Shown here piece by piece: positions 553 to 31,894 of a stretch of 34,065 nucleotides of DNA (its first letter is position 1; each line of letters starts with the position of its first letter). The notes beneath the pieces are model-generated. The model was given only the letters and a program-made list of their open reading frames with translations. It had not been told where the DNA came from and made no database searches. Made by a program: the position numbers and the translations under genes. The stretch comes from a virus. The DNA is taken from the IMG/VR virus record IMGVR_UViG_3300046170_000054, positions 1-34,065 of that record; one strand, written 5' to 3'.

Positions 553-708
553 ATGAAAGTTAAAATAATTGATAATTTTGATGAACACATTGGTTATAAA
601 GAAAATACTATATTAGAGATAATTGAACAAAATGAGGATGGTTACTATATTTTAAGTAGTGGACATTGGTGTTCAGAAGCTGAATTGGAGTTTATAACAG
701 ACTCTTAA
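553..708 (+). CDS. hypothetical protein, 51 aa; stop codon lies inside a repeat
   Basis: A short complete ORF, ATG 553 to TAA 706-708, with acidic character and the segment YYILSSGHWCSEAELEF, which resembles a small beta-rich domain. The last codons (Asp, Ser, stop) are written by the start of the first copy of the TTAAACATAGTA repeat. It is the last gene of the early run that crosses the ends of the window. No family recognised. Its regular codon use and the close spacing to its neighbour support it. Confidence 0.5.
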   Translation: MKVKIIDNFDEHIGYKENTILEIIEQNEDGYYILSSGHWCSEAELEFITDS

Positions 709-815
709 ACATAGTACATCCTTAAACATAGTATATTTTATTCTTAAACATAGTACCCCCTTAAACATAGTACCTTAGTTATTAAACATAGTACCTTAGT
801 TATTAAACATAGTAC
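704..815 (+). repeat. Repeat cluster A: six direct copies of CTTAAACATAGTAC
   Basis: Six direct copies lie at 704-717, 721-734, 743-756, 760-773, 781-794 and 802-815. Start-to-start spacings are 17, 22, 17, 21 and 21 bases. The 12-base core TTAAACATAGTA is identical in all six, while spacers differ except for a CTTAGTT shared by the last ones. The first copy contains the stop codon of the gene ending at 708. The cluster closes the early operon and lies about 165 bases before a flavobacterial promoter. Role unknown; repressor, replication-protein or termination sites are possible. Confidence 0.9.
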
Positions 816-916
816 GTTTTTTGGGGGTTTCTATTTTCTTATTTATAATCATTCTAGATAATACTTTTGCATCTTCTTTAACCTTTGCAAAGTATTAAAC
901 CAAATTAAATTAGTTA

Positions 917-988
917 GTTAATTATTTGTTAATGTTCTTATTTAGAATAAATATAAATTAATATTGTCATTGTTAATTATTTGTTAAT
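917..988 (+). repeat. 17-base direct repeat upstream of the 1003 promoter
   Basis: GTTAATTATTTGTTAAT occurs exactly at 917-933 and 972-988, 55 bases apart. The second copy contains the TTTG used as the -33 element of the promoter at 980-1010. The first copy has a TTTG but no good TAnnTTTG at the right distance. It may be a duplicated promoter part or a pair of operators. The low complexity of the sequence calls for caution. Confidence 0.55.
936..950 (+). promoter_or_regulatory. Operator-like inverted repeat TCTTATTTAGAATAA
   Basis: TTATT-TAG-AATAA is a 5-base inverted repeat. The same 15 bases occur at 31912-31926. Both copies sit between a TTAAACATAGTA cluster and a flavobacterial promoter, 53 bases before the TATCTTTG box here. 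The shared placement suggests a protein site, but AT-rich sequence makes chance matches easier. Confidence 0.35.
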
Positions 989-1010
989 TAAATTTATTTA
1001 CTTATCTTTG
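980..1010 (+). promoter_or_regulatory. Flavobacterial-type promoter for the 1032-1778 operon
   Basis: TTTG at 980-983, a 19-base spacer and TATCTTTG at 1003-1010 match the Bacteroidetes housekeeping consensus TTTG-N17-23-TAnnTTTG. The first ATG with a usable context follows at 1032. The -33 region shares TTGTTAATTAAAT (981-993) with the promoter at 32079-32110, suggesting that both are controlled alike. Confidence 0.7.
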
Positions 1011-1031
1011 GTTAAAATTAACACACATAAT

Positions 1032-1172
1032 ATGAAAAAACTAATTGAAAAAATAATCTTAAGTAAAGTATTTGTTACTTTATTTATTTACTCATCAGCA
1101 TTAATAATATTTACTTTTTTAATGCTAGGCGAGTCACTAATCGAAACCATAATTTTTAACCTTTTAAAATAA
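1032..1172 (+). CDS. small single-span membrane protein, 46 aa
   Basis: The start is the ATG at 1032. An upstream in-frame ATG at 981 lies inside the promoter and would precede transcription. A short charged N-terminus (KKLIEK) is followed by a long hydrophobic stretch at about residues 9-35 and a second hydrophobic tail, giving one or two membrane passes. It is the first gene after the promoter and ends 4 bases before the next ATG. Small membrane proteins in early phage operons often act on the host envelope or block superinfection, but nothing here identifies this one. Confidence 0.6.
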   Translation: MKKLIEKIILSKVFVTLFIYSSALIIFTFLMLGESLIETIIFNLLK

Positions 1173-1176
1173 TACT

Positions 1177-1377
1177 ATGAACACAGAAACAAAAACAGAA
1201 TCAATTGAAATTAAAGCATTTTCTAATGCTGAGAAGATTTCTTTTAATGTCTTAGACAAACTAAACATCTCAGATATGAACGACTTTAAATTAACTCAAT
1301 TGGTCGTATTTGAGACACTTAGACAATTAGATAAAAATGAATTATTAAAACACGATTTAAAACAATATTTTAACTAA
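1177..1377 (+). CDS. hypothetical protein, 66 aa
   Basis: Compact helical protein beginning MNTETKTES, a Thr-rich start echoed by the next gene (MNTHTQTEN). It contains FKLTQLVVFETLRQLDKNEL, which looks like an amphipathic helix. It lies between the small membrane protein (4-base gap) and the acidic protein (11-base gap), so the three are probably cotranscribed. No family recognised and no catalytic motif is visible. Confidence 0.6.
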   Translation: MNTETKTESIEIKAFSNAEKISFNVLDKLNISDMNDFKLTQLVVFETLRQLDKNELLKHDLKQYFN

Positions 1378-1388
1378 AAACTAAACAA

Positions 1389-1778
1389 ATGAACACACAC
1401 ACACAAACAGAAAACAAAAAACAAACTAAATTTGATGAATTAACTATATTAATAGATGATTTTACAAATATATATTTACCTGACTATTTAGATGCTTTGG
1501 AATTAGAGGCTTTTAATCTTATTAGTGTTGATGATTTATGGGCTGAACTAGATGACAAAGGAGCCTTTAATATTGATATTATTTACTATAATAAAGCTAT
1601 GGATTACCTTTCGCAAAATGATGCGAGTTTATCCGAGTCTATTGAAATAGCTGTTGACATGGGTTATTCATTAGAAAATTTAAGCTCTGAAACCTTAGCA
1701 AGTTTACACGCCTCACAAAAGGCAAGAGATGATTTCTGGGACATTAAGGATGAAATAGATGAGATACTAAGCCGATAA
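1389..1778 (+). CDS. very acidic phage/plasmid protein, 129 aa; possible anti-defence factor
   Basis: By my count it has 29 Asp+Glu against 9 Lys+Arg. The core IIYYNKAMDYLSQNDASLSE followed by an IEIAVDMGYSLENL-type stretch and SSETLASL is a pattern I associate with small conserved proteins on phages and plasmids of many bacteria, without a proven function. The charge and early position fit a DNA-mimic or anti-restriction role, which is inference only. It ends the short operon begun at 1003 and is followed by a strong terminator at 1804. Confidence 0.6.
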   Translation: MNTHTQTENKKQTKFDELTILIDDFTNIYLPDYLDALELEAFNLISVDDLWAELDDKGAFNIDIIYYNKAMDYLSQNDASLSESIEIAVDMGYSLENLSSETLASLHASQKARDDFWDIKDEIDEILSR

Positions 1779-1787
1779 CATTTAAAG

Positions 1788-1829
1788 CTCTTAAACACGC
1801 TATAAAGCCCCTTAATTGGGGCTTTTTTT
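1788..1829 (+). terminator. Rho-independent terminator with a degenerate repeat copy in front
   Basis: AAAGCCCC (1804-1811), loop TTAATT, GGGGCTTT (1818-1825), then a T run to 1829. It ends the 1032-1778 operon. CTCTTAAACA at 1788-1797 is a partial copy of the dispersed repeat. The same order, partial repeat followed by an AAAGCCC-TTAATT hairpin, recurs at 13931-13975. Confidence 0.9.
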
Positions 1830-2023
1830 ATACCCTATATTTACCTTATTAGATTAATGGACTTTTTTTGTAACTCTTTTGTAATTAAATGGGTTAGGTA
1901 TCTCAGATATAACAAACAAAGCCAATTTCATCCCTTTTAAGACACTATCTCCCTATCACCTATACAAACATATCACTTAAACATTAAAGTAGCTTAGAAG
2001 CTCTTATATTAAGTCATTAAAAC
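1830..2023 (+). other. Intergenic stretch, no gene seen
   Basis: Roughly 190 AT-rich bases between the terminator and the next promoter. The only notable piece is CTTAAACATT followed by AAAGTAG at 1976-1992, which could be a decayed repeat copy. No ORF, hairpin or promoter that I can support. Confidence 0.5.
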
Positions 2024-2052
2024 TTTAACAAAACATTAACAGAATATATTTG
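2024..2052 (+). promoter_or_regulatory. Promoter of the long leader / candidate RNA
   Basis: TTTA at 2024-2027, a 17-base spacer and TATATTTG at 2045-2052, a perfect TAnnTTTG box. Transcription should start near 2057. The next start codon is more than 500 bases away at 2573, so the promoter makes either a separate RNA or a very long leader of the tail operon. Confidence 0.6.
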
Positions 2053-2056
2053 TATA

Positions 2057-2520: not shown

Positions 2521-2558
2521 TAGTCTAAATAAAGCGTGGTACAGAATTATACTTTTTT

Positions 2559-2575
2559 AGTTATCATACTATATG
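2559..2575 (+). promoter_or_regulatory. Start-proximal motif AGTTATCATACTAT
   Basis: A block AGTTA-YC-W-TAYTAT leads directly into the ATG at 2573. Nearly the same block abuts the starts at 9964 (9952-9966) and 14014 (14002-14016). Here and at 14014 it is preceded by ATACTTTT. It may be a phage-specific promoter or translation element of late genes. Confidence 0.3.
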
Positions 2576-7741: not shown

Positions 7742-7887
7742 TAAAGAATATAATAGATTTACTAAACTCTTCTGACTGGTATATATATGATGAAGACATA
7801 GATATAGCAAAAGGAAAGTACAAATCTCCAAGAACTTGGAAAGAAATAAAAAAAAGTATAAAACGAAACACATACAACAATGGCTGA
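7738..7887 (+). CDS. hypothetical protein, 49 aa
   Basis: The ATG at 7738 overlaps the TGA of the large tail gene (ATGA), and the ORF runs 8 bases into the tape measure gene. It contains SSDWYIYDEDIDIAKGKY and a basic tail. Tight overlap on both sides supports real translation. No family recognised. Confidence 0.5.
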   Translation: MIKNIIDLLNSSDWYIYDEDIDIAKGKYKSPRTWKEIKKSIKRNTYNNG

Positions 7888-9928
7888 TAATATCATAAAA
7901 GTATTTAAAGTACAAGTAGATACAAGTACTGGTGAACTTAAAATTAATGGAATAACTAGCACCATTAAACAGGCTCAAAATGAATTTAATAAATTTGATA
8001 AAATAGCTCAAAAGGCTGCTAAATCAAATGAAACCTTTATAGATAAGTCTGGATTAGCTGGTGCTGCTGTTGTAGAAATTGGTAGAACAATATCTGATGC
8101 CAACTATGGATTTGCTGCAATGGCAAACAACATTTCACAACTTTCTACTCTTTTAATAACATTAATATCTACTACAGGCTCTACTTCTGCTGCTTGGAAG
8201 GAATTAAAAAAAGCGTTTTCAGGTCCTCTAGGAATTATTGTTTTATTTCAGATTGTAGTGACATTGCTTGAAAAAGCAGATAAAGCCAGTAAAAAACTGG
8301 GTGATTCTGTTAAAAGTGCTACTGATGGATTAAACTCACAAATAGTTGTTGCTAATGAATATGTTAAAATATTGGAAGATGTAAATACTTCTGAAGAAAA
8401 AAGAGCTGGTGTAATACAAGAATTAGAAAAATTAATACCTACTCTAAAAGACCAAGAAATAGATTATGGAAAAGAACTAGACATCGTTAAACAAAAAATA
8501 ATTGATTACAGTTTAGCCCAAGCTTCTAGGTTGCAAATGGATAAATTAGTTCAAGAAAACTCAGAAGTTCTTTCACAAAGAAGAAGAATTGAAAATATTC
8601 AAGCAATAAAAAATGAAGAAGAAAGACAAAAAGCTGTTGAGAACTTCTTAAAATTAGAAGGAATAGCTTTAACTGAACAAGTAGAAAAATATGATACTTT
8701 TGGAGGAAGGTTTACCACTTTTGTTAAAAGGTCACAAGAAGATATTAATAAAGATTTTACAGATTTTGCTAATAATGTAGAAAAAGAATCTGCCCCTATA
8801 ATAGAAAAAATAAATGATTTAGCAAATAACTTAGATAAAGCGTTTGTTCCAGATAAAAAAGGAAAATTAACAAAAAGCAGAAGAGAGTTTATAGCTAAAG
8901 AATTATCTTTTGCTGATGATATATTAAAATCTGAAGATAGGATAGCTAAAAAAGTAACAAAAAATCAATTTGATAGGTTAAAACAAGAAGAAGAAGTACA
9001 GAAAAAACTAGCTCAAATAAAGTTTGATGAGTATAAAATTAGAGAACAAGCTAGAGTTGCTGCTATAAAAGACCCAAAAGATAGAGCTAAAGCAGAAATT
9101 AAATCAGCAGAAGCAATAAAGAAGTCTGAACAATCATTACAAGATTTTAAAGTTCAACTAGAAAATGAAACGTCTGCAAAAATATTACAAATAAAAATAG
9201 AACAAGCAGTAAAACAATTAAACATAGTATCTGACTTACAAGCTAAAGAAAGAGAAACTATATTATCTTTTAATGAATCTATGGCAAATACAGAGCTTGG
9301 AAGAATAGCAATTCAAGAGCAGCTAGAAGAAGAAAGACATAAAAACAAAATAAAAAGAATAAATGATGAGATAAAAGAGAGGAAAAGAGAGGGTGAACTT
9401 TATTTTGATTTAGAGGAACAAAAAAGAATAGAAGATGCAAGAAATGAAAGAGAAAAAACCAAACTAACTAAAGCAGGAGAAGATGCTAGATTAAACATAA
9501 TAAATTTTGCTGCTGATGCCGCTATAGCTATTGCAGGTAAAGGTTCTGCTTTAGGAAAAAGTATAGCTGTTGCAATGGCTATTATAAACACAAGAAAAGC
9601 AATTACTGAAGCTTTAGGAGATAAAGAGGTGCCTTCTTTCTTTAGAATACTTCACGCTACTGCAATAGGTGCTTTTGGTTTTAAACAAGTAAAAGACATA
9701 ATGGCTACTAAACTTCCTGTAGGAGATAAAGGAGGAGCAGGAGGTGCAGCTTCAGTTTCTGTAGCAGCTCCAGACTTCAACGTAGTAGGTCAAGGTGCAG
9801 GTAGTCAATTAGCAGGTGTTGTTGGTGCTAGATTTGGTGAACCAATTAAAGCTTATGTATTAAGTGCTGATGTAACTTCTGCACAGGAAATGGATAGGAA
9901 AATAGATTCAACAGCTACAATAGGATAA
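7880..9928 (+). CDS. Tape measure protein (682 aa)
   Basis: A long, lysine/glutamate-rich helical protein with extended coiled coil at about residues 150-530, a hydrophobic segment near 113-133 (GPLGIIVLFQIVVTLL) and an Ala-rich region near 545-585 (FAADAAIAIAGKGSALGKS). The C-terminal segment FFRILHATAIGAFGFKQVKD is of the kind seen at tape measure C-termini. Its length sets tail length, and the hydrophobic parts are thought to help DNA entry. At 682 residues it predicts a tail of roughly 100 nm by the usual rule of about 1.5 Angstrom per residue. Confidence 0.8.
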   Translation: MADNIIKVFKVQVDTSTGELKINGITSTIKQAQNEFNKFDKIAQKAAKSNETFIDKSGLAGAAVVEIGRTISDANYGFAAMANNISQLSTLLITLISTTGSTSAAWKELKKAFSGPLGIIVLFQIVVTLLEKADKASKKLGDSVKSATDGLNSQIVVANEYVKILEDVNTSEEKRAGVIQELEKLIPTLKDQEIDYGKELDIVKQKIIDYSLAQASRLQMDKLVQENSEVLSQRRRIENIQAIKNEEERQKAVENFLKLEGIALTEQVEKYDTFGGRFTTFVKRSQEDINKDFTDFANNVEKESAPIIEKINDLANNLDKAFVPDKKGKLTKSRREFIAKELSFADDILKSEDRIAKKVTKNQFDRLKQEEEVQKKLAQIKFDEYKIREQARVAAIKDPKDRAKAEIKSAEAIKKSEQSLQDFKVQLENETSAKILQIKIEQAVKQLNIVSDLQAKERETILSFNESMANTELGRIAIQEQLEEERHKNKIKRINDEIKERKREGELYFDLEEQKRIEDARNEREKTKLTKAGEDARLNIINFAADAAIAIAGKGSALGKSIAVAMAIINTRKAITEALGDKEVPSFFRILHATAIGAFGFKQVKDIMATKLPVGDKGGAGGAASVSVAAPDFNVVGQGAGSQLAGVVGARFGEPIKAYVLSADVTSAQEMDRKIDSTATIG

Positions 9929-11172: not shown

Positions 11173-11381
11173 TGAGAAGAAGATATAAAAAAACACCAAG
11201 CAGAACAAGCCCTCGTTCATCAAGAAGAGGATGTTTATGTAAAGATGGAACATATTCAACAAAGTGCTGTGATGGTTCATTACAAGCTCAAGGTATAGGT
11301 TCTTTAGTTGGAGAAGAATTATTGTGTACTGAAGCAGGAGCTAATCTACAACAAGAAAATGGTAATAATATAAAAGTATAA
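11172..11381 (+). CDS. small Cys-rich phage protein (69 aa)
   Basis: A basic Arg/Ser-rich N-terminus is followed by RGCLCKDGTYSTKCCDGSLQ, a compact Cys motif (C-x-C...CC) seen in small proteins of Bacteroidetes phages between the protease and capsid genes. It may bind metal or form a small structural knot. It overlaps the protease stop and lies 3 bases before the next gene. Function unknown. Confidence 0.6.
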   Translation: MRRRYKKTPSRTSPRSSRRGCLCKDGTYSTKCCDGSLQAQGIGSLVGEELLCTEAGANLQQENGNNIKV

Positions 11382-11384
11382 AAA

Positions 11385-11837
11385 ATGGCAAAAAAAATAT
11401 CACAATTAAACGCGGCTACAGAATTGCAAGGACCTGAAACTTTTGCAGTAGTTCAAAGTAACGAAACTAAAAAAGGAACAATTAGTCAAGTTATAAATTA
11501 TATACACGCTACTAACATTACTGTTTCATCAGGAGATACTGTTGATTTAGACGATGCAGCTTATGATGACACAAGATTAATAAAGTTGACTTGGACAGGA
11601 GATTCTGGAAATATGACTATGACTTTGCCAGATGCTACAACTTCTAAAAACACAAACAGATTAATAAGATTTGTAACAAACGGAGGATTTAACACAAACA
11701 CAAGAGTTAATTTAACTCCTCTTGCAGGACAAGAGTTAGACGGTTCTTCAAGTTCTTATGAATTAAATGTTGCTTATGAAGGTTTAATGTTGTGGTCAAG
11801 TGGAACTGAATGGATTATAATACAGAAAAAAGGTTAA
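11385..11837 (+). CDS. Capsid decoration or head-fibre-like protein (150 aa)
   Basis: The N-terminus KKISQLNAATELQGPETFAV followed by VQSNETKKGTISQV is a short attachment motif common in phage fibres and decoration proteins. The remainder is a beta-rich domain with many Thr and Asn and ends LMLWSSGTEWIIIQK, a pattern usual for small trimeric surface domains. Placed between protease and scaffold, it most likely decorates the head. Inference from motif and position. Confidence 0.5.
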   Translation: MAKKISQLNAATELQGPETFAVVQSNETKKGTISQVINYIHATNITVSSGDTVDLDDAAYDDTRLIKLTWTGDSGNMTMTLPDATTSKNTNRLIRFVTNGGFNTNTRVNLTPLAGQELDGSSSSYELNVAYEGLMLWSSGTEWIIIQKKG

Positions 11838-12384: not shown

Positions 12385-13319
12385 ATGGCTACTACAACTT
12401 CAATTACAAGTACTTATGCTGGAGAATTTGCTGGAAAGTATATTTCTGCTGCATTACTATCTGGTTCTACTATAGAAAATGGTGGAATTTCAGTAAAACC
12501 TAATGTAAAGTTTAAAGGAAGTAATCAAAAAGGTCTGCTACAAGCGGTCTTATTGCTAATGCTTCTTGTGACTTTGCTGACACAGGTTCAGTTACATTAA
12601 CAGAAAGAATCCTTCAACCAGAAGAGTTCCAAGTTAATATTGAACTATGTAAAAAAGACTTCCGTTCTGACTGGGAAGCTGTACAAATGGGATATTCTAC
12701 ATTTGACAAATTACCTCCAAAATTTAGTGATTTCTTAATCTCTCACGTTGCTGCTAAAGTTGCTGAGAAGACTGAGCAAAACATCTGGAGTGGTGTTAAT
12801 GCTAATGCTGGTGAATTTGACGGATTCTCTACTTTATTAGCTGCTGATTCTGATGTTATAGATGTAACTGGTTCTGCAATTACTTCTGCTAACGTAATCT
12901 CTGAATTAGGTTCTATCGTAGATGCAATTCCTTCTTCTTTATACGGACAAGAAGATATGTATGTATATGTATCTCAAAACATTGCTAGAGCTTATGTAAG
13001 AAGCTTAGGTGGATTTGGAGCTTCTGGATTAGGTGCTGCTGGTACAAACTCTCAAGGAACTCAATGGTGGAACAATGGTTCATTAAGCTTCGATGGTGTA
13101 AAACTATTTGTTGCTAATGGATTAGCTGATGACACTGCTGTTGCTGCTGAAAAATCTAACTTATACTTTGGAACAGGTCTTTTATCTGACCACAACGAAG
13201 TAAAAGTTATCGATATGGGTGACTTAGATGGTTCTCAAAATGTAAGAGTAATCATGAGGTTTACAAGTGGAGTACAATACGGAATCGGAGGAGATATCGT
13301 ATACAGAGTAAACGCTTAA
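12385..13319 (+). CDS. Major capsid protein (about 311 aa), broken by one lost base
   Basis: Opens at ATG 12385 (MATTTSITSTYAGEFAGKYI) and breaks in the A5 run at 12527-12531. Adding one A restores QKRSATSGLIANASCDFADT and a continuous 312-codon reading frame to TAA 13317-13319. It contains LQPEEFQVNIELCKKDFRSD and KLFVANGLADDTAVAAEKSN, patterns of capsid proteins in flavobacterial phages with the HK97-type arrangement of protease and scaffold. Codon use is the most regular in the window, as expected for a highly expressed gene. A terminator follows 15 bases later. Confidence 0.75.
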
Positions 13320-13389: not shown

Positions 13390-13920
13390 ATGTCTTGTAA
13401 TTTAACACTATATAGAACAGAACCTTGTAAAGACAGTGTTGGTGGGTTAGATAAAGTTTACTTTGTAAATTATGACAGTTCGTTATATTCAAACATTACG
13501 TTTGACACAACTAACACAGATGCCATAGAGTCAATCACTGGAACTCCATCTGCATACGAATATGACATTAAAGGAACTTCATCTTTCACACAAAACATTC
13601 AGTCTAGTAGAGAAAACGGAACAACTGCTTTTGAGCAAGTTCTTGAATTAACTTTACACAAATTATCTGTTGCTGACCACAAAGAATTAAAATTACTTTC
13701 TTGGGGGAGACCTCATGTTATCATTAAAGATAACAACGGAAATTATTTCTTAGCTGGTATAGAGCATGGAATGGATGTCTCAGGAGGAACCGTTGTTACA
13801 GGTGGTGCTATGGGAGACTTAAGTGGATATACTTTAACTTTAACAGGAATGGAAAAAGCTCCAGCTAACTTTATGGAGTCTGACCCTGCTACTGTTGGAT
13901 TTACTGTTGTAAACTCTTAA
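13390..13920 (+). CDS. Major tail tube protein (176 aa)
   Basis: A beta-rich protein of the usual size for tail tube subunits. It begins MSCNLTLYRTEPCKDSVGGL and contains YDIKGTSSFTQNIQSSRENG, then LELTLHKLSVADHKELKLLS and YFLAGIEHGMDVSGG, which match the fold pattern of siphovirus tail tubes in Bacteroidetes phages. It has its own transcription gap (terminators on both sides), fitting high copy number. Its last codons (Asn-Ser-stop) fall in a repeat copy. Confidence 0.7.
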   Translation: MSCNLTLYRTEPCKDSVGGLDKVYFVNYDSSLYSNITFDTTNTDAIESITGTPSAYEYDIKGTSSFTQNIQSSRENGTTAFEQVLELTLHKLSVADHKELKLLSWGRPHVIIKDNNGNYFLAGIEHGMDVSGGTVVTGGAMGDLSGYTLTLTGMEKAPANFMESDPATVGFTVVNS

Positions 13921-13946
13921 ACATAGTACACTCTTAAACATAATAG
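13916..13946 (+). repeat. Repeat cluster B: two copies of the TTAAACATAGTA element
   Basis: A perfect copy at 13916-13929 begins inside the stop codon region of the tail tube gene. A second at 13933-13946 has one core mismatch (ATAATA). They are 17 bases apart, the shorter spacing of cluster A, and a terminator hairpin starts 5 bases later. Confidence 0.85.
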
Positions 13947-13950: not shown

Positions 13951-13975
13951 AAAGCCCTTTAATTAGGGCTTTTTC
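13951..13975 (+). terminator. Terminator after the tail tube gene
   Basis: AAAGCCCT, loop TTAATT, AGGGCTTT, then T bases. The stem start and loop are the same as in the 1804 terminator, and TTAATT also forms the loop of the 25131 terminator. Confidence 0.9.
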
Positions 13976-14369: not shown

Positions 14370-16101
14370 ATGGAAAACAAAAATATTAGAGTAGTCAATC
14401 TATCTGGTTATGAGATACCAGAAATAAAAGAAGTCTACGGAAAAGACTGGGTTCAGTATGGAGATAATAATGATTACTTTGATGAACTTATAGATAAATA
14501 CTTAGGAAGTCCTACAAACGCAAGATGTATAAATGGTATCGTAGATATGATTTATGGTAGAGGATTAGAAGCTACAGACAGTGAAATAAAACCTGAGATG
14601 TATGCCAAGATGAAAATGCTCTTAAAACAAAAGGATTTAAGGCGTGTTGTGAACGATTATAAGATGTTAGGTCAATCTGCTGTTCAAGTGGTCTATAACA
14701 AGCGTAAAACGTCTATTGTGAAGGTGTTACACTTTCCTATGGAGACTCTTAGAGCAGAAAAAGCCAAAAAGGGTCAAATAGAGGCTTATTATTACCATCC
14801 TAAGTGGTCTGAAATGAGTCCTAGTGACAAACCTAAAAGAATACCTTCTTTTGGTAATGGTTCTAAAAAGAGAGTTATAGAAATATATGTATTTAAACCA
14901 TATAGGTCAGGATTCTACTATTATTCTCCAGTAGACTATCAATCTTGCTTACAATATGCAGAATTAGAAGAAGAAGTAAGTAATTATCATATAAATAACA
15001 TAAAGAATGGATTACAACCTTCTTTATTAATAAACTTTAACAATGGAGTACCTAATGAAGAAACTCAAGAGCTTATTGAACACAAAATATATGATAAGTT
15101 TAGTGGCTCTTCAAATGCAGGTAAATTCATACTTACTTTTAATGAGTCTACAGAAACTCAAGCAGATTTACAGCCTATTCACCTTACCAGATGCTCACGC
15201 ACAGTATCAGTTCTTGGCTGACGAAAGCAGAGAAAAGATAATGCTTGGTCATGGTATTGTTTCTCCTATATTATTAGGTATAAAAGACAATACAGGGTTT
15301 GGAAACAATGCAGAAGAACTTAGAACTGCTTCTATCCTTATGGATAACATAGTAATCAGACCATTTCAACAGAATATTATAGATGGTTTAGATGAAATCC
15401 TTGCATTTAACAAAATATACTTAAGTTTATACTTTGTCACTCTACAACCAATAGAATTTACAGAATTAGATAACATTTCTACTAAAGTTAAGAGAGAAGA
15501 GGAAACAGGAGAGAAGTTAAGCTCACAAGAAGAATTAGATTTATCAGATGAAGGTGCAGAGGACCTATATACTCAATTAGAAGTACTAGGAGAGGTTGTT
15601 TCTGATGAATGGGAGCTTATACATAGTGAAGCAGTAGGTAATGACAATGAAGAGTTTGATTTAACTAAACTAAGTGTATCAGAAGATGATGCTAAGCCTA
15701 ATAAGAGGTCAAGTCAAGATAATTCTGGATATAAAATAAGATATTCTTATGGTCCAGTAAGAAACTCTGATAAAAGTAGAGTATTCTGTAAACAAATGGA
15801 ATCTCTTACAAGTAAAAACTTAGTATTCAGAAAAGAAGACATTACTCTTATGTCTTTTAGAGGATTAAACAGTGATTTAGGACATAATAAAAAGAAATAT
15901 AACCTTTTTAAGTTCAAAGGAGGTAAAAATTGTCACCATTTCTGGGAAAGAAGAGTATATAAAAAGAAAGTAACACCAAATGCCGAAGTTGAAGCTTCAG
16001 ATGCTGTACAAGACGGATTTAAGGAACCAAATAATCCTAAAGAAGTCGAAGTTAGACCAGTAGATATGCCAAACAGAGGTGCTTATCCAAAAACTAAATA
16101 A
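14370..16101 (+). CDS. Portal protein (about 576 aa) with a C-terminal Cys/His module, one extra base
   Basis: The frame breaks near 15182. Removing one base continues QPIHL into PDAHAQYQFLADESREKIML and yields 577 codons to TAA 16099-16101. The N-terminus has DWVQYGDNNDYFDELIDKYL and SPTNARCINGIVDMIYGRGL. The centre has HGIVSPILLGIKDNTGFGNN, all usual for this portal group. The C-terminus carries a separate module with SRVFCKQMESL, FRKEDITLMS and KGGKNCHHFWERRVY, with conserved Cys/His, found on phage head proteins. It forms the 12-fold ring for DNA packaging with the terminase. Confidence 0.75.
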
Positions 16102-19700: not shown

Positions 19701-20901
19701 AAATTTATTAACTATAAATGACCCTAACGCTAATGGCAGTATTACTGATACAATACCATCTTGGTGGGGATTAGTTATAGATAGGGCATATACAACATCT
19801 TCATCAGCAGCAATTGGTTTAATTGGAGGAACTGTAGCGTCTGGTTCAAGTGGAAGATTATATTTAGGTAATTCTGATGATGTTGATAATTCTTATATAG
19901 ATGGGGGCGCAAATCAATTGCACTTTGGTGTAGGTGGGGAAAGAATGCGTATTGATAGTAGTGGTAACGCTTCTATTGGTGATGGAGGCGCAGGTGCAAG
20001 AGGTGCAAGATTATTATTAAATAATACAGGTTCACAAGGCACACCACAATTAATGTTAATTGATAGTAATGATTCAGGAAAACAATCTGAAATTAGATTT
20101 GATAGTGGTAACCTAATCTTTGATTATTGGGGTGGTACTTCTCGTTCAGAAAGAATGCGTATTACAAGTGAGGGGTATATTTTATTAGGAACACAAGGAC
20201 TGCCCGATGGAACTTCTGTTTATGGTAGTGCATTTATTCCAAGTAGTGTTAATAGAACGGTATTATCTCAAGCAAGTTCTTCAACTGCTGCATCTGTTTT
20301 ACAAGTTTATAGAAATCCAAATGGAATTGTAGGTTCTATTAGTATGACTAATTCTACAACCTCTTACAACACATCTTCTGATTATAGATTAAAAGAAAAT
20401 GTAGTAAAAATGACTGGTGCTTTAGATAGAGTAAGCCAATTAAAACCTAGTAGATTTAATTTTATAGCAGATGCAGATAAAACAGTAGATGGATTCTTAG
20501 CCCACGAAGTACAAGAAATAGTACCTGAAGCTATTACAGGAGAAAAAGATGCTATGCGAGATGAAGAATACGAAGTAAGTCCTGATGTTTATGAAGATGT
20601 TGTTCATCCTGCTGAAGAAGCAGTTTATGAAACTATAGAACATCCTGCTGTTGAAGAAGAATTAGATGATGAGGGTAATGTAATTGTAGAGGGCAAAGAA
20701 GCATATACTGAAGAAGTCCTTGTAACAGAAGCTAAAGAAGAATGGACTGAAAAAGTATTAGTATCTGAAAAGGTAATGGGTACAAGAGAAGTGCCAGATT
20801 ATCAAGGCATCGACCAATCAAAATTAGTGCCATTATTAGTAGGTGCTATACAGGAGTTAAAAGCAGAAATAGAAAGTTTAAAGTCACAAATAAATAATTA
20901 A
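16705..20901 (+). CDS. Tail fibre / receptor-binding protein with C-terminal S74 self-cleaving chaperone (1398 aa)
   Basis: Residues 50-120 form a short fibre head domain (VGIGVTPESGLNLHVFGDAK). Next come GNVT repeats (172-191), then long beta-helical repeats built on 'RMRIDSSGNVGIG' units that recur four or five times to about residue 1160. The C-terminal 174 residues are an intramolecular chaperone: S-D-Y-R-L-K-E-N begins at Ser1225, the expected self-cleavage serine with a Ser/Lys dyad, followed by KPSRFNFIADADKTVDGFLA and a terminal coiled coil (LVPLLVGAIQELKAEIESLK). Residues about 1294-1363 are an acidic insertion. A G+C-richer part near 18990-19245 suggests module exchange. Confidence 0.85.
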   Translation: MATLSGNKIKDTYQSLVKFSDNGNITTSAKQLTDGFGNNSPMFVSTTQVGIGVTPESGLNLHVFGDAKIGSNLTVIGNLVVEGSTTTVGTDTLTVKDPLIVLANNNTSTDAVDIGFYGKYTPSGTTLYSGLFREALTGKYRLFKGLEVEPTTTVNTSGTGYAVATLIANLEGNVTGNLTGNVTGNITGNVTGGTISGTTGTFSGDVEVNGGDLSITSSTGLASVELGGASGGYIDIKAPESDDYDMRFIVSQGGNEITTASGDLKINTANTLALTIDSSQDATFAGGVSATTGTFSGDVNVNSNLIVTTGTPISGSANGSNVIAKIDSSAGTDSGGLEIHTGDNNGDEAALLHTNYNGDEAFRISSLGHIVSTGSASFVGQVTIPETPTADTHAASKGYVDAAVEGQDTLAEILAIGNTTGGTDIAITAGDKITNFTSTGIDDNSTSTVLTIDNTNRALFSGDVSLQANLIGNTNATGDLTILGSLFIGDYGVNDDPDLLYADNNIVRIGYYSNAKQFEVNETDFKVTATHKVGIGTNDPQTLLEVSNENSGLNPIIRLNNVDSSLSDGQNLGSIEFYNDHTNLTTANIGVFHSTDGTIVKEMKFNLGSSGDILTLDANEINATKRFTITGSGTTPRVTLTNNAGEGALTYSLRSQDNGEFGIFQESSEILAIDNDGEVFINVEDEGKFSIVSATDEAAYLHFSDGSGVKNFIRVDHDGDTFGYNSWGSHLFTLGEGVDSLTLDDNGATFASGATFSGNVGIGTPSPGRPLHVIGQVAIANAVEATSTGALLVSCDGTSNKIYSRTVQNVTGAHPIDFMQTSSAVMRIASNGNVGIGTTSPSAKFSVLESTANTEYASMGSGSTVARHLKFSGFIANGTNNVGHRLSALNAIALNVAGDDALYIDSSGNSTFAGSVTVNGGQDALTINTTDTDGPYAVWENTTNAALGYVGNANSLAAAGNTNFAVRATNDLIFAAGGNTERMRIDSSGNVGIGTDSPTNLLTINDPNANGSITDTIPSWWGLVIDRAYTTSSSAAIGLIGGTVASGSSGRLYLGNSDDVDNSYIDGGANQLHFGVGGERMRIDSSGNASIGDGGAGARGARLLLNNTGSQGTPQLMLIDSNDSGKQSEIRFDSGNLIFDYWGGTSRSERMRITSEGYILLGTQGLPDGTSVYGSAFIPSSVNRTVLSQASSSTAASVLQVYRNPNGIVGSISMTNSTTSYNTSSDYRLKENVVKMTGALDRVSQLKPSRFNFIADADKTVDGFLAHEVQEIVPEAITGEKDAMRDEEYEVSPDVYEDVVHPAEEAVYETIEHPAVEEELDDEGNVIVEGKEAYTEEVLVTEAKEEWTEKVLVSEKVMGTREVPDYQGIDQSKLVPLLVGAIQELKAEIESLKSQINN
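17218..17277 (+). repeat. Five 12-base tandem repeats in the fibre gene
   Basis: GGTAAYNTTAC-type units of 12 bases encode Gly-Asn-Val/Leu/Ile-Thr five times. Unit number could vary by slippage and change shaft length by four residues at a time. Confidence 0.8.
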
Positions 20902-21602: not shown

Positions 21603-21937
21603 AAAATATATTATGTGCGATATGTGTATTGGTTGCGGGCTTTGTATATAGTCAAGACGTAACAGTTCTGCAAATAAATGCAGAATGGAATAAAAAGAAT
21701 AATTACGATTTAAGTGATATTACAGGTGCTACTGTAAAGTTTAGTTACCTAAAAGACCAACCTAAAGATATTCAGAATAAAATTATGGCTGTGCCTGTAA
21801 TTGTTATTATGGATAAATCAGGTAGAGTTAGTATGCAATATGTAGCAGATATATCTTTACAGATTAAAGCTACTAGGTTGGAGATACAAAACACTATAAA
21901 TAGAATTAAAAAACCTAGAAGAGCAAGTACTAACTAA
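21599..21937 (+). CDS. Exported thioredoxin-fold-like protein (112 aa)
   Basis: A signal peptide at residues 1-18 ends VYSQ, a usual flavobacterial cleavage context. The mature part has VTVLQINAEWNKKNN, then VPVIVIMDKSG, which follows the thioredoxin layout (first strand with AEWN where WCxxC would stand, then the cis-Pro VP). The active-site cysteines are absent, so no redox role is expected. It stands between a spanin-like gene and the M15 peptidase with ATGA overlaps, suggesting a periplasmic part in lysis. Similar proteins occur in other flavobacterial phages, by my recollection. Confidence 0.5.
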   Translation: MKNILCAICVLVAGFVYSQDVTVLQINAEWNKKNNYDLSDITGATVKFSYLKDQPKDIQNKIMAVPVIVIMDKSGRVSMQYVADISLQIKATRLEIQNTINRIKKPRRASTN

Positions 21938-22407
21938 TGAGTAGAATAAGCAAACATATAACTTACAAAGAAGCTACTAGAAGTAATACAGCTCTTAGAT
22001 TAGGTATAGAAAATGTGCCTAATGAGTATGAGCTTCAGAATATGGAGATGGTAGCTAAGAAAGTGTTTGAACCACTTAGAGAAGCTATTGATGCTCCTAT
22101 AAAAATAAACTCATTTTTTAGATGTGAAGAACTTAATAAAGCTATTGGAGGCAGCAGTAAAAGCCAACATTGTCAAGGACGTGCTATTGATATTGACGAT
22201 ATTTATGGTCACGTTAGTAATGCTTTTATGTATTATTACATTAAAGATAATCTTGACTTTGACCAACTTATTTGGGAGTTTGGCACAGATGATAGCCCTG
22301 ACTGGGTTCACGTTAGTTATGTAGATGGTGACTCCAACAGAAAAAGATGTCTAAAGGCATACAAAGAAAATGGTAAAACTAAATACATAGATATAACTAA
22401 CTCTTAA
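21937..22407 (+). CDS. Endolysin, M15-type peptidase (156 aa)
   Basis: A zinc peptidase of the D-Ala-D-Ala carboxypeptidase / L-Ala-D-Glu endopeptidase group. Zinc ligands are visible as H78 and D85 (SQHCQGRAIDID, HxxGxAxD) and H125 (DWVHVSY), with nearby acidic residues for catalysis. INSFFRCEELNKAIGGSSKS before the first ligand is the usual M15_3 segment. There is no signal peptide, so it depends on a holin for release. It overlaps the preceding gene by one base. Its last codons, Asn-Ser-stop, lie in a repeat copy. Confidence 0.85.
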   Translation: MSRISKHITYKEATRSNTALRLGIENVPNEYELQNMEMVAKKVFEPLREAIDAPIKINSFFRCEELNKAIGGSSKSQHCQGRAIDIDDIYGHVSNAFMYYYIKDNLDFDQLIWEFGTDDSPDWVHVSYVDGDSNRKRCLKAYKENGKTKYIDITNS

Positions 22408-22460
22408 ACATAGTATATCCTACTTCTTAAACATAGTAGGTTACTTCTTAAACATAGTAG
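22403..22460 (+). repeat. Repeat cluster C: three copies of TTAAACATAGTA
   Basis: Perfect core copies lie at 22403-22415, 22426-22439 and 22447-22460 (spacings 23 and 21). The first includes the endolysin stop codon, and the last ends 3 bases before the ATG at 22463. Protein bound here could affect expression of the holin genes that follow. Confidence 0.9.
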
Positions 22461-22462: not shown

Positions 22463-22606
22463 ATGAAATACAAAATAGGATTTGCAGAAACATTTACAAC
22501 AGGACCTCTACTTGGCTTTTCTATATACGACCCTACTGTAGAACAAGATTATACTGAGTTGAATATTTACTTGATTTTTTTAATGATACATATAAGAATA
22601 GAATAA
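22463..22606 (+). CDS. hypothetical protein, 47 aa
   Basis: ATG 22463 to TAA 22604-22606, TAATG overlap with the holin gene. It begins MKYKIGFAETFTTGPLLGFS and ends LNIYLIFLMIHIRIE, a pattern of short conserved phage proteins placed near lysis or tail genes. The start codon is 3 bases after repeat cluster C, so the repeat replaces the usual upstream region. Function unknown. Confidence 0.55.
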   Translation: MKYKIGFAETFTTGPLLGFSIYDPTVEQDYTELNIYLIFLMIHIRIE

Positions 22607-24248: not shown

Positions 24249-24277
24249 AGTTGTATATTGCATTAAAACAAACAAGT

Positions 24278-24833
24278 ATGTCAAAAACATTAAATTTTGA
24301 ACAAAAGGTAATTGCAATTCAAACAGAATTAAAAGCACCTAAAAACCAATACAATAGTTTTGGTAAGTACAGATACAGAAGTCAAGAGGATATCTTGGAA
24401 TCTGTTAAGCCATTGTTGAAGAAGTATGAGTTATCTATAACTCTAACTGACACAATCAATGAAACACCATCAGGTATTTGTTATGTAGAAGCTAGAGCTA
24501 TACTACATGGTACAGATGGTAAAATTGAATCAGTAGCTCAAGCTGGTATTGATGTTAACAAAAAAGGTATGGATATATCTCAGTCATTTGGTAGTTCTAG
24601 TTCTTATGCTAGAAAGTATGCTTTAAATGGCCTTATTGTTAATTGATGATACAAAGGATGCTGATACAACAAATACTCACGCAACTTCAAGTCTTAAATG
24701 GCTTAATGAAGGTACTCCTGAATTTAATAAAGCAATAGCTCATATTAAAAAAGGTGGAAACATTACAGATATTAAAAAGAAATTTAATATATCTAAAACT
24801 GTAGAATCTAAATTAACTAATATTAAATCTTAA
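24278..24833 (+). CDS. erf: ERF-type single-strand annealing protein (184 aa), one extra base
   Basis: The start is ATG 24278 (MSKTLNFEQKVIAIQTELKA); an earlier in-frame ATG at 24251 lacks conserved sequence. The typical ERF segments are NSFGKYRYRSQEDILESVKP and QSFGSSSSYARKYALNGL. The frame breaks near 24631 (GGCC). Dropping one base gives LLLIDDTKDADTTNTHA, the known ERF continuation, and 185 codons to TAA 24831-24833. ERF proteins anneal complementary strands during phage recombination, usually with an exonuclease and an SSB, both encoded nearby. Confidence 0.8.
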
Positions 24834-25168: not shown

Positions 25169-26031
25169 ATGACAATAAAAGATTATACAAATGAAGAACA
25201 ACAGTATATGCAATATATCGAGGATAAAGCATATATTGACCCTAATAAAGAAGTTAAATATCCTCCAATAGCTATAAGCATGGGAAATTTTAGAGCAGGA
25301 AGTGAAGTTTATCCAATACCAATAGGTACTTATGGTAACTTCTCTTTTATTGCAGCTCCTCCTAAATCTAAGAAAACATTCTTTGTTAGTTTACTGTCAG
25401 CAGTATATCTTAAAGGTAAACTAGATAGTCATGCAAAAGGAATGGTTGGCCACAGAAACGATAGATGCTTAGTGCACTTTGATACTGAACAGGGTAGATT
25501 TCATGCTCAGAAAGTATTTAGAAGAGTATTAGATATGACAGGATTAAGTGATGAATGTTATCATACTTTTGGTTTAAGAACATTAAACAATAAAGATAGA
25601 TTAAAGTTTATAGAATACTTTTTATATCATAAAGTACAAGATGCAGGATTAGTTGTTATAGATGGTATAGCTGATTTAGTTTCTGATGTAAACAACTTAG
25701 ATGAATCTAGTATGGTTATACAAAAGCTAATGAAGTGGACTGAAGAATTAAATTGTCATATAGTTACAGTAATACATAGTAACTATGGTTCTGAAAAACC
25801 TACAGGACATTTAGGTTCTTACTTAGAAAAGAAAGCAGAAACACAAATTCAATTAGAATTAAACACAGTAAATGATGAAATGGTTACAGTTAAATGTAGA
25901 AGAAGTAGAGGTTTTCCATTTGATAAATTTAGCTTTAAAATAAATAAACAAAGGTCATCCTGAAATAGGTTGATGACTTATATGATATTATAGAAGACAA
26001 TAACATAAATGCAACTAAAACTTACGTTTAA
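25169..26031 (+). CDS. RecA/RepA-like AAA ATPase (about 286 aa), two extra bases
   Basis: An AAA_25-type ATPase of phage replication. The Walker A region is IAAPPKSKKTFF (62-72), lacking the usual glycines but keeping the KKT core common in this group. LVHFDTEQGRF follows, Walker B is LVVIDGIADL (D164), and VTVIHSNYGSEKPTGHLGS is the sensor region. The frame shifts near 25950 and near 25969. Correcting both gives 287 codons to TAA 26029-26031. It likely acts as a helicase or helicase loader, or in strand exchange. It overlaps the RusA gene by 23 bases. Confidence 0.7.
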
Positions 26032-26421: not shown

Positions 26422-26422
26422 T

Positions 26423-26981
26423 ATGTTAGAATTGTTGGCTAAGAATCATCTGTTATGGGTAAAGATGGTTTCTAATATGGGATGCCCTAGACATCTTTGT
26501 GAGGATATTGTACAGGAAATGTATTTAAAAATAAATAGATTAGTTACTGACAAAAGAAAGATAATGTATGGAGATGATGATGTCAATAGATTTTATATCT
26601 ATGTTACATTAAGAAACTTATATAGTGATTATAAGAAAGCTAAAAACAAATATACTTTTTTTCAGTTATCTTGAAACAGATGATGCTGATACAATACATA
26701 CAGCAGAATATTTATATTCAGATACTGAAACAGAGAAAGAAGAAGCTTTCTATAAGATAACAATGAAGTTAGCTAGAGAGATTAATTCTTGGCATAGTTA
26801 TGATGCTAAGTTATGTAATACATATTACTTAGGAGATATGTCTCTAAGGCAAATATCCAAAGGAACTAACATTAGTTTGACTAGCATATTTAATTCTATT
26901 AAGAATTATAAAGCAATACTAAAAAGCAAATTTATAGAAGATATAGAGGATTACTTAAACGGAGATTATCACTTACTTTAA
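26423..26981 (+). CDS. Sigma-70-like protein (about 185 aa), one extra base
   Basis: CEDIVQEMYLKINRL (26-40) and FYIYVTLRNLYSDYKKAK fit sigma region 2. After a break in the T7 run at 26656-26662 (one T too many), the second half has LRQISKGTNISLTSIFNSIK, a region-4-like helix-turn-helix. Correction gives 186 codons to TAA 26979-26981. Flavobacterial phages often carry such short sigma-like proteins; it could direct host RNA polymerase to late promoters. It starts 1 base after the RusA stop. Confidence 0.65.
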
Positions 26982-26992
26982 ATAAATAAATC

Positions 26993-27803: not shown

Positions 27804-27851
27804 ATTGGACTATTACTTGTTCTTATAATGTTAATGTAAAATATATATATA

Positions 27852-28136: not shown

Positions 28137-28142
28137 CAGACT

Positions 28143-28177: not shown

Positions 28178-28192
28178 CTTAAAATTAAAATT

Positions 28193-28339: not shown

Positions 28340-29100
28340 TAAAAACATTTGACAATAAAGAGTGGAAGTATTTAGACCTTATAGAAAGAATGTATGATGA
28401 TGAGTTTTACTATGGTTATCTTGGTTCTAACGCACTTTCTTCATCTTCAGCTAAGAAACTACTACAAAGCCCTAAAGCATATCTTAAATCGCTTAATGTG
28501 AATCAGGATGCTCAACCATTAAGAGATGGTAGGCTTGTACATTTATCTGTGCTTGAACCTCAAAAGGTAAAAGACTTAACAATAATTGATGGTTCTAAAG
28601 CTACTAAAGCATTTAAACAAGCTGTATTAGATTTGGGTTCTGCTAATGTATATACTAGAAGTGAATTTAATAATGCTAATAGAATAGCTGATGCAGTTCT
28701 TAAATGTAAAGAGGTAACAAATTTATTACAAGGAGCTGAGTTTGAAGTACCTCAAGCTTCTATGATAGATGGCTTACCTTTCAGAGGTAAAGCAGATGTG
28801 TTAAATGGTAATGTTATCATAGACCTAAAAACAACAGGAGACATAAGTAAATTTAGATGGAGTGCTAAACATTTTTCTTATGATTTACAAGCTGCCTTAT
28901 ATACAAAGATGTTTGATGCAGATGCTTTTATATTTGTTGTTGTAGATAAAGACACTAAAGATATAATGATATGTGATTGTTCAGATGAATTTATGAGAAC
29001 TGGATTGCAGAAATTAGATAGAGCAATAGAACAGTACAAGTATTTCTTTCAAGATGAGATACCTAATCTGGATAATTATGTAACACATGAAACACTATAA
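28336..29100 (+). CDS. RecE-like PD-(D/E)XK exonuclease (254 aa)
   Basis: The order of motifs fits the RecE / exonuclease VIII-like group: SSSSAKKLLQSPKAYL, GRLVHLSVLEP (H69), FRGKADVLN (D154), VIIDLKTTGDISKF (D163, K165) and FSYDLQAALYT (Q185). D154, D163 and K165 are the metal site and Q185 the usual motif III/IV glutamine. Such 5'-3' exonucleases make the single strands that ERF anneals, and ERF is encoded 4 kb upstream in the same region. Length agrees with single-domain phage members. Confidence 0.75.
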   Translation: MIKTFDNKEWKYLDLIERMYDDEFYYGYLGSNALSSSSAKKLLQSPKAYLKSLNVNQDAQPLRDGRLVHLSVLEPQKVKDLTIIDGSKATKAFKQAVLDLGSANVYTRSEFNNANRIADAVLKCKEVTNLLQGAEFEVPQASMIDGLPFRGKADVLNGNVIIDLKTTGDISKFRWSAKHFSYDLQAALYTKMFDADAFIFVVVDKDTKDIMICDCSDEFMRTGLQKLDRAIEQYKYFFQDEIPNLDNYVTHETL

Positions 29101-29350: not shown

Positions 29351-29456
29351 AGATGCTTTTGTAAGCAGATGTATGACAGATGCAACAATGAAGCAAGAGT
29401 ACCCACTAAGAGAACAGCGATTAGCTGTATGTATTAATCAATTAAGAAAAGGATAA
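29316..29456 (+). CDS. short conserved Cys peptide (46 aa)
   Basis: ATG 29316 to TAA 29454-29456. IPKKRPQENEDAFVSRCMTD and EYPLREQRLAVCINQL match a short motif (P-x-P-K..E..DF.SRCM....E(Y/F)P...QR.AVC) that occurs alone or on larger phage head proteins in Bacteroidetes phages. Two Cys lie about 21 residues apart. Stop and next ATG overlap (TAATG). Function unknown. Confidence 0.6.
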   Translation: MPIPKKRPQENEDAFVSRCMTDATMKQEYPLREQRLAVCINQLRKG

Positions 29457-29980
29457 TGGATTTAAATAGTACACTACAAACTAAACAGATTAGGAATTAT
29501 ATGGAAACCTGTTTAGGAATAGACCTAAGTTTTAGAACTAGAAAAAGAAGTAATGTATATGCAAGAGCAGTATACTTTAAATTATGTAAAGAATATACTA
29601 GACTTAGTTTAACTGATATAGGAGCTAGTGTTAATGTTGACCATGCTACAGTGATTCATGGGATTAATAATGTATTTCCTATAGTTATGCAATACGATGG
29701 TCACTTACAAGACCTTTATGAAGATTATAAATATTCTAACAATCATGATGCTGAAAGTATATTTGAGAACTATTCAAGATTGCTAAAAGAAAATATAAGT
29801 TTAAGAAGTCAGGTTGATGAGATGAATAATGATGGCTTATTAAATAGCCCTTCTTTTAAAAGGCTTATTAATTTGTATAATGATATACCTAAAGAAAAGA
29901 AACATGATGTTTGTGATAAACTAGAAACTATAGTTAAGGTTACTAAGGCATTTCATGAGAAAGATACTGTACAATCTTAA
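29456..29980 (+). CDS. DnaA domain IV-like DNA-binding protein (174 aa)
   Basis: Residues 25-75 resemble the C-terminal DNA-binding domain of DnaA: RKRSNVYARAVYFKLC, then SLTDIGASVNVDHATVIHGI, with DHATVIHG matching the DnaA signature DHxTVxH. The ATPase domain is absent. The remaining 100 residues are helical, with a coiled coil (YSRLLKENISLRSQV). It probably binds specific sites on phage or host DNA and could act at the phage origin or titrate DnaA boxes. Possible targets are the TTAAACATAGTA clusters, which is inference. Confidence 0.75.
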   Translation: MDLNSTLQTKQIRNYMETCLGIDLSFRTRKRSNVYARAVYFKLCKEYTRLSLTDIGASVNVDHATVIHGINNVFPIVMQYDGHLQDLYEDYKYSNNHDAESIFENYSRLLKENISLRSQVDEMNNDGLLNSPSFKRLINLYNDIPKEKKHDVCDKLETIVKVTKAFHEKDTVQS

Positions 29981-30194
29981 GGCTCAAAGCTGGTGTATAG
30001 AAAGAGGATACAGGATATATATTATACCCTTAAACAATAAGGGAACTAAATGTAAAATTGGAATAGAACTTGGAGAGAAGAAAGCAATAACAAAAGAAGT
30101 TTATTCTAATAAAGAAGTTAGTGTAGAAATATGGAAACTATTTACAAAATTATATAACAGATGGCACGAGCAAAACAAAACTCAGCATACATAA
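29955..30194 (+). CDS. hypothetical protein (79 aa)
   Basis: Overlaps the DnaA-like gene by 26 bases and the small terminase gene by 34. WCIERGYRIYIIPLNNKGTK and a following KCKIGIELG suggest an alternating-strand domain, and the C-terminus (VSVEIWKLFTKLYNRWHE) is helical. The pattern is common directly before terminase genes in Bacteroidetes phages, in my recollection. Function unknown. Confidence 0.55.
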   Translation: MRKILYNLKAQSWCIERGYRIYIIPLNNKGTKCKIGIELGEKKAITKEVYSNKEVSVEIWKLFTKLYNRWHEQNKTQHT

Positions 30195-30586
30195 AACCTA
30201 ATGATGGCAGAAAGAATAATGGAAGAAAGAAAGGGGATAAGTATGGACCAAAGAAACAACTGATTAAATCCTCTTCACAATTAACACCAGCAAAGAAAGA
30301 AAGAATATCTATTTATGCGTTGAACGCAATGAAAGATGTTTTTGGTAGTGAAGAGGAAGCTTGGAAAGCATTAGCAGAACAAGCTAAAGATTCCTTTGCA
30401 CATATGAATTTACTATGGCAATATAGATATGGTAAACCTCAAGATGGCAATGAAGACAATTCTAAGAAGAAGTTAGATGTACCTGTAATTAATTTCTATG
30501 CTTCAGCAAATCAAGTAGAGAAGTTAGAAGATACAATAGATATAGAATCAGAAGAAGTAGATATGGATGAATTAAATAATGAATAA
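30161..30586 (+). CDS. Probable terminase small subunit (141 aa)
   Basis: A very basic, low-complexity N-terminus (NDGRKNNGRKKGDKYGPKKQ) is followed by helices (AKKERISIYALNAMKDVFGS) and a conserved MNLLWQYRYGKPQ, with an acidic C-terminus. The gene overlaps the large terminase by 8 bases. Small terminases recognise packaging sites and recruit TerL. Assignment rests on position, charge and the RYGKP segment usual in such proteins. Confidence 0.6.
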   Translation: MARAKQNSAYIKPNDGRKNNGRKKGDKYGPKKQLIKSSSQLTPAKKERISIYALNAMKDVFGSEEEAWKALAEQAKDSFAHMNLLWQYRYGKPQDGNEDNSKKKLDVPVINFYASANQVEKLEDTIDIESEEVDMDELNNE

Positions 30587-31795
30587 CTTAAAGTTAAACG
30601 AAAAATACAGTCCTTTATTTACAGAGAAGAGTAGATACTTTGTGTGTACTGGAGGTAGAGGTTCTGGTAAATCATTTGGTGTAGCTGTATTCTTATTGTC
30701 ATTAACCTATGAACAAGGCCATAAAGTTTTGTTTACTAGGTATACAATGATATCAGCACAGACCTCTATTATTCCAGAGTTTATTGAGAAGATAGACTTA
30801 ATGGGAGTAAATGACCACTTTAGAATTACTAAAGATGAAATCATAAATATGACCACAGGAAGCTCAATAATCTTCAAAGGTATCAGAACATCAAGTGGTA
30901 ATCAAACCGCTGCCCTGAAGTCTCTAAATGGTGTTACAACCTTTGTTATTGATGAAGCTGAGGAGTTAACAGATGAATCTACATTTGATAAGATTGATTT
31001 CTCTGTAAGGTCACAAACTAAACAGAATAGATGTATACTTATATTAAATCCTACAACTAAAGAACATTGGATATATCAAAGATTCTTTCAGAGTTCAGCA
31101 TGTTAAGCTCAGGTTGGAATGGTTCAACAAATAAAGTTACTTATATACATACAAGTTATAAAGATAATAAAGAGAACTTATCTGATTCATTCTTAGAACA
31201 GATATTTGAAATGAAACTAAAGAGGCCAGACAAGTATGAACATCAGATACTCGGTGGTTGGCTTTCAGCAGCAGAAGGAGCTATCTTTAAGAACTGGAGG
31301 GTAGGAGATTATATACAAACAGAAGCCACCTGCTATTGTCAAGACTTTGGATTCTCAGTGGATTTAACAACGCTTTGTAAAATATCAGTAGATAAGGCTT
31401 TAGGTAAATTATATGTAAAAGAAATCTATGGTAAAGCTGGATTGTCTACAACAGATATAGCAATGAAGAATAAAATGGAATGTGGAGCTGATTTAATTAT
31501 ATGTGATTCTTCCGAACCTAGACTTATCAAAGAGATAAAACAGAAGGGAGATTTAAACATAAGACCTACAATAAAAAAGAAAGGAAGCATATTGTCAGGA
31601 ATCGCATTGATGCAAGACTATGAGATTGTAGTAGATAGAAACTCTCATGGTATTGTAAGAGAACTAAACAATTATGTTTGGCAAGAAAAGAATACTAAAC
31701 CTAACATTGGTTATGAACATTACATTGATGCCATTAGGTATGGGCTTACATTCTTGATACAAGGTCAGAACTCTGGCAAGTATGTCATTAGGTAA
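30579..31795 (+). CDS. terL: Terminase large subunit (about 405 aa), one lost base
   Basis: The N-terminal ATPase has Walker A GGRGSGKS (25-32) and Walker B TTFVIDEAEEL (D125, E126). The frame breaks near 31088. Restoring one base joins YQRFFQ to EFSMLSSGWNGS, VTYIHTSYKDN and the RNase H-like nuclease (CQDFGFSVDLTTL, LIICDSSEP, HYIDAIRYGL), giving 406 codons to TAA 31793-31795. It matches Terminase_3-type enzymes. Acts as the packaging motor at the portal. Four repeat copies begin 3 bases after its stop. Confidence 0.85.
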
Positions 31796-31797
31796 TC

Positions 31798-31894
31798 GTT
31801 AAACATAGTAGGTGTTTCCTTCCCCTTAAACATAGTAGGTATTTTTCTATCCTCTTAAACATAGTAGGTATTTTGTAGCTCTTAAACATAGTGG
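31798..31894 (+). repeat. Repeat cluster D: four copies of TTAAACATAGTAGGT
   Basis: Copies at 31798-31811, 31825-31838, 31854-31867 and 31881-31894 (one core mismatch in the last, GTGGG). Spacings are 27, 29 and 27 bases, longer than in cluster A. The copies share an extension GGTATTTT. The cluster separates the terminase from the early promoter at 32079. Confidence 0.92.

Follow-up and report, generated by a model that had tools for sequence, protein, structure and literature searches.

The stretch of DNA analysed here, referred to as the window, is a virus record of 34,065 nucleotides from an uncultured lineage related to a marine flavobacterial phage. Its nearest isolates by protein are the Nonlabens phages P12024S and P12024L (53% identity for the terminase of a close relative, 28% for the 746-aa protein). 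No tRNA was found in the window. Five genes are each split over two ORFs in this record, namely those for the terminase (30579-31795), the sigma-like protein (26423-26981), ERF (24251-24833), the portal (14370-16101) and family 11, probably the capsid (12385-13319). Since these genes are mostly unsplit in relatives, sequencing errors are likely in this record. The C-terminal part of a 1398-aa tail-fibre-like protein (20364-20552) is 80% identical at the DNA level to Pelagibacter phages, a match that would reflect recent domain exchange among phages of different host phyla.

The window contains 14 exact copies of the 12-mer TTAAACATAGTA, every one of them on the + strand, compared with 0.06 copies expected by chance, and none of 100 shuffles reached this number. 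The exact copies start at 705, 722, 744, 761, 782 and 803 (array A), 9218, 13917 (array B), 22404, 22427 and 22448 (array C) and 31799, 31826 and 31855 (array D). All but the one at 9218, together with two one-mismatch copies at 13934 and 31882, make up four + strand arrays of 6, 2, 3 and 4 copies. Array A (705-814) consists of six TTAAACATAGTA copies with start-to-start spacings of 17, 22, 17, 21 and 21; array B (13917-13945) of TTAAACATAGTA followed by TTAAACATAATA at a spacing of 17; array C (22404-22459) of three copies spaced by 23 and 21; and array D (31799-31893) of three exact copies and TTAAACATAGTG, with spacings of 27, 29 and 27. A degenerate copy, TTAAACACGCTA, lies on the + strand at 1791-1802, 12 nt past the stop codon of ORF 1389-1778. 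Every copy listed in the earlier note exists, but the starts given there were one base too low (704 instead of 705, and so on), and it missed the remaining exact copy at 9218-9229, which lies in sense inside a 682-aa ORF (7880-9928), where it encodes Leu-Asn-Ile-Val. Near copies inside ORFs of the window are also biased to the coding strand, perhaps through codon usage.

The arrays adjoin stop codons. In three of them the first copy itself holds the TAA stop of the upstream ORF: 706-708 for ORF 553-708 in array A, 13918-13920 for the family 12 gene (13390-13920) in array B and 22405-22407 for the endolysin ORF (21937-22407) in array C. Array D starts 4 nt past the end of the stop codon of the terminase large subunit (31795). 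The earlier note placed every cluster just past the last gene of a unit, which needs correcting for array C, where the end of a unit is not clear: it lies between two ORFs that are 57 bp apart, is accompanied by neither promoter nor terminator, and a 47-codon ORF at 22464 begins 5 bp past its last copy. Across 40 array-bearing gene gaps in 20 genomes, with distances taken from simple ORF calls rather than a trained gene finder, the median distance is 3 nt from the stop codon to the start of the first copy and 215 nt from the end of the last copy to the next ATG. Array sites recur in several genomes after the terminase, after the family 12 gene and after the endolysin gene.

Further elements lie downstream of many arrays. 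A 23-bp palindrome, TTATTTAGAATNATTCTAAATAA, is found at 839-861, 24 bp after array A (two mismatches), again past the same array at 938-960, and at 31914-31936, 20 bp after array D (three mismatches). When genomes of all four clades described below were searched together, it was located no more than 300 bp downstream of an array in 31 of 42 cases, most often at a distance of 10-40 bp. This palindrome is probably an operator, kept although the array words differ. Scanning for the Bacteroidota sigma-type promoter pattern TTTG-N18-21-TAnnTTTG revealed + strand matches at 980-1010 (N19), 165 bp past array A, and at 32079-32110 (N20), 185 bp past array D, so that both + strand consensus promoters of the window sit at most 450 bp downstream of an array. 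Over the wider set the same is true of 20 out of 29 + strand promoters, in zones that account for 3.9% of the sequence. The 12 sister-clade genomes showed no exact consensus promoter downstream of their arrays. Hairpins resembling intrinsic terminators are present on the + strand directly past array B (13952-13974, with a T tract) and after the degenerate copy (about 1804-1830); their co-occurrence with arrays is modest, at 13 of 40 array gaps (33%) versus 57 of 248 other gaps (23%). The adjacency to stop codons, together with the positions of palindrome and promoter, points to a common module consisting of a stop codon, a polar array, a palindrome, a promoter and the next gene block.

The paired 12-mer matches at least 117 IMG/VR stretches. 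Among the matches listed, the window and the IMG/VR loci together contain 437 exact copies, all of them in the coding direction, and in loci of the window's clade (clade A) coding amounts to 532 kb on the copy-bearing strand versus 6 kb on the other. We read 20 long records whole, of which 19 share the core genes of the window; G002 was rejected as an unrelated contig with a chance match inside an ORF. The wider consensus of the 12-mer is approximately AYYC-TTAAACATAGTA-GG(T), and clade A copies vary as TTAAAC[AG][CT]A[AG]T[AG], mostly by transitions. The array motif was not found in annotated phages, plasmids or the literature, searches in which BLAST is weak for repeats so short, and arrays are absent from the isolated phages P12024S/L, Riemerella RAP44 and Olleya Harreka_1. 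Among 84,980 cellular genomes the paired motif gave just four tandem matches, chance-like and unrelated in appearance. The end of a Chitinophagaceae MAG contig (L131, 1-8000) carries a tandem GTGACGTATTAAACATAGTAC that includes the 12-mer and looks unrelated.

A terminase search extended the comparison to 80 loci, and later scans and twelve more genomes agree with its outcome. The word of the window is found in loci whose terminase is at least about 77% identical, and in more distant loci the position after the terminase, or one close to it, is taken by other words: GTTTAATATGATGGGG in clade B, GTTTAACATTATGGGG in clade C, and CTTTAACATAGTAGG and CTTTAATRYAGGAGGG in clade D. Apparent period-8/9 repeats after the terminase in L243 and L244 are of another kind and were excluded. 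Copies running the same way and the opposite way number 212:0 in clade B, 69:0 in clade D and 38:4 in clade C, which is small; with the 437:0 above and arrays that abut stop codons, relatives do not show the random or two-way placement that the earlier note had named as evidence against its reading. In G025-G027, where a minus-strand gene block is present, no array flanks this block in reverse. An 86-codon minus-strand ORF located between the post-terminase arrays of clade B (G025, 11323-11583; G027, 28717-28977; oriented coordinates) suggests an inserted gene. The change of words at kept positions suggests a trans-acting partner with drifting specificity.

The spacing of neighbouring copies follows a rule that the earlier description in classes of 17, 21-23 and 27-29 bases had hidden: nearly all spacings are odd. 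Counting distinct units, odd and even spacings number 159 and 12 in clade A (171 units), 68 and 7 in clade B (75), 50 and 3 in clade D (53) and 8 and 0 in clade C (8), which leaves 22 even values among 307; in clade A a decayed copy lies within some of the even spacings. The only even spacing in the window, 22 between 722 and 744, may itself be an error, given the sequencing errors likely in this record. On the terminase tree a parsimony count, in which positions were matched by order in the array so that homology is only approximate, showed that spacing length had changed at least 57 times at array positions but parity only six times, compared with a mean of 26 when parity was assigned randomly to each length class; six or fewer were seen in none of 500 trials. 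By eye, parity is not kept in the distances from stop codon to first copy or from array to palindrome. Helical phasing was rejected as the cause, as odd spacings from 13 to 33 reach all faces of the helix; it is parity that defines the spacings, which the two helical turns mentioned in the earlier note do not explain. A codon-frame effect was likewise rejected, with spacings in all three classes modulo 3, as were spacer hairpins, compensatory pairing of spacer ends being 0.469 observed versus 0.502 shuffled. We know of no precedent for the odd-spacing rule and of no accepted explanation, and it is the most novel feature of the element.

The search for a binder has one leading, weakly supported candidate. 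The + strand gene at 29456-29980 encodes a protein with a DnaA domain IV (Pfam Bac_DnaA_C, 4.8e-12; PDB profile match to DnaA, 3.5e-10; model and fold match) and an extra C-terminal helical part beyond this domain, and the gene is conserved three genes upstream of the terminase. The earlier note had named this DnaA-like protein as a possible binder; the domain is real, but neither presence and absence nor strict co-variation with the arrays supports a binding role. Homologues are present in the array-less P12024 phages and Olleya phage Harreka_1, none was detected in the array-bearing G028, L225, L226, L233 and L236, and the type of recognition helix only partly tracks the type of repeat, clade-B words occurring with both GRSSI- and NHATA-type helices. 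The protein stays a candidate. An alternative is the sigma-region-2-like protein (26423-26981, + strand), split by a frameshift in this record. Neither repressor nor integrase was recognised among the ORFs and families examined; many small ORFs have no assignment.

We propose that the arrays are polar, putatively protein-bound zones that stop or insulate transcription, an interpretation to which we give about an even chance. A protein made in the infected cell would bind each asymmetric 12-15 bp site on DNA; it would most likely be phage-encoded, because the clades use different words. The bound sites would form tandem roadblocks that stop RNA polymerase coming from the upstream gene block. 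Read-through would in this way be kept out of the next promoter module, with its 23-bp palindrome followed by a host-type promoter, or the downstream gene would be dampened. Protein binding, recognition of DNA instead of RNA, and termination are all three things that we infer. The stop zone is favoured because of the polarity of the arrays, their adjacency to stop codons and the promoter modules downstream. In these nearly one-strand genomes the direction of the arrays would fit transcription, replication or packaging alike, and a DNA roadblock gives no ground for odd spacing.

The main rival is that the arrays are polar replication-fork barriers, at which bound sites, in the manner of rDNA barriers, would halt forks that run head-on into a gene block from its 3' end; we regard this as unlikely. 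Polarity, tandem arrangement and a place at the 3' end of transcribed units are features that the arrays share with rDNA Ter/RFB sites and Sal boxes (PMC5368702). A conserved AAA_25 protein, possibly a RepA-like helicase (25169-25963), is encoded in every array-bearing sister-clade genome checked; the P12024 phages, which lack arrays, yielded no homologue. The step of DnaB-type helicases is 2 nt per subunit (PMC13105403), and a fork-barrier version of the odd spacing would place neighbouring sites in alternate registers of such a helicase, the only mechanism found under which parity would matter. However, GC skew has one sign across nearly all of the window, both the helicase identity of the AAA_25 protein and its 2-nt step are putative, and register coverage alone would call for a single odd interval in each array, not for odd intervals almost throughout.

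It is similarly improbable that the arrays act as an RNA 3'-end element, in which the transcribed words would be bound by a protein responsible for processing or protecting the upstream mRNA at its 3' end. Strict sense orientation, stop-codon adjacency and the predominance of transitions among clade A variants would suit such an element, but the window arrays have no stable fold, with folding z-scores close to zero unless a terminator is part of the sequence, pairing between spacer ends is not compensatory, no Rfam match was found and a single-stranded RNA site gives no ground for odd spacing. The GU-rich arrays of two relatives have a folding z-score of about -2.6. RNA hairpins are disfavoured, as are single-origin iterons. 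Replication iterons, the second analogue offered by the earlier note, would be sites of the DnaA-like initiator, whose conserved gene and the match of the word to the DnaA box (TTATCCACA) at six of nine positions speak for them; they fit poorly because a genome has several arrays, up to four or more, and these sit at the 3' ends of genes and not at one origin. With the mismatched distribution of homologues and the mixed recognition helices described above, we consider iterons very unlikely. Least probable of all is that the arrays mark recombination boundaries or are selfish short repeats that the phage annealing system (ERF plus exonuclease) has spread. Related arrays do reuse spacer modules in new orders, and genes for ERF and an exonuclease are present, but one orientation, stop-codon adjacency, conserved positions and parity would be left unaccounted for.

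The odd spacing might also be a functional code in its own right, with neighbouring sites required to alternate between two-nucleotide registers; a motor that advances 2 nt at a time (a replicative helicase or another ring translocase) or a dinucleotide-reading protein would then always meet one site in phase. This is a long shot; if true, it would be a new principle for polar roadblocks. It seems that phages with no recognisable repressor use polar arrays to flag where a gene block ends; between clades the word of these arrays has changed, but not their position, direction or odd spacing. This offers a natural setting for comparisons aimed at finding the binder and at studying how DNA-bound proteins halt a moving polymerase or helicase.

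Amongst known systems, intrinsic terminators share the location of the arrays, and some arrays have one beside or inside them, but the array words form no stable GC hairpin with a T tract, which is true only of the sequence beside array B. The Sal boxes and Ter sites of rDNA (bound by TTF-1, Reb1 or Fob1), for which we know of no parity rule, differ in being eukaryotic and in using unrelated proteins. Like the arrays, they consist of repeated sites at a transcription unit's 3' end, and they act there as terminator and fork barrier (PMC5368702). As for DnaA boxes (9-mer TTATNCACA), it is TTAAACATA that gives the partial match noted above, and variants and sister-clade words differ further. E. 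coli DnaA favours boxes 2-3 bp apart. A protein with DnaA domain IV is encoded by the window too, and DNA-bound DnaA is a roadblock to RNA polymerase that ends elongation at E. coli asnC and other genes (PMC11317965). Compared with the stoperators of cluster A mycobacteriophages (L5, TipsytheTRex), the present element differs in its tandem arrays of 2-6 copies, odd spacing, abutment of stop codons and several clade-specific words, and in that no immunity repressor or integrase was recognised. What the two share is asymmetric sites of 12-13 bp, many per genome, oriented with transcription and located in short intergenic spaces at gene ends, here with rare in-gene copies such as that at 9218; L5-type repressor sites lose their function on reversal (PMC9283540). 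The stoperator analogy of the earlier note fits the one-way copies and the arrays abutting stop codons and is the best parallel to the arrays; the element is real, widespread and conserved, and most likely acts like stoperators.
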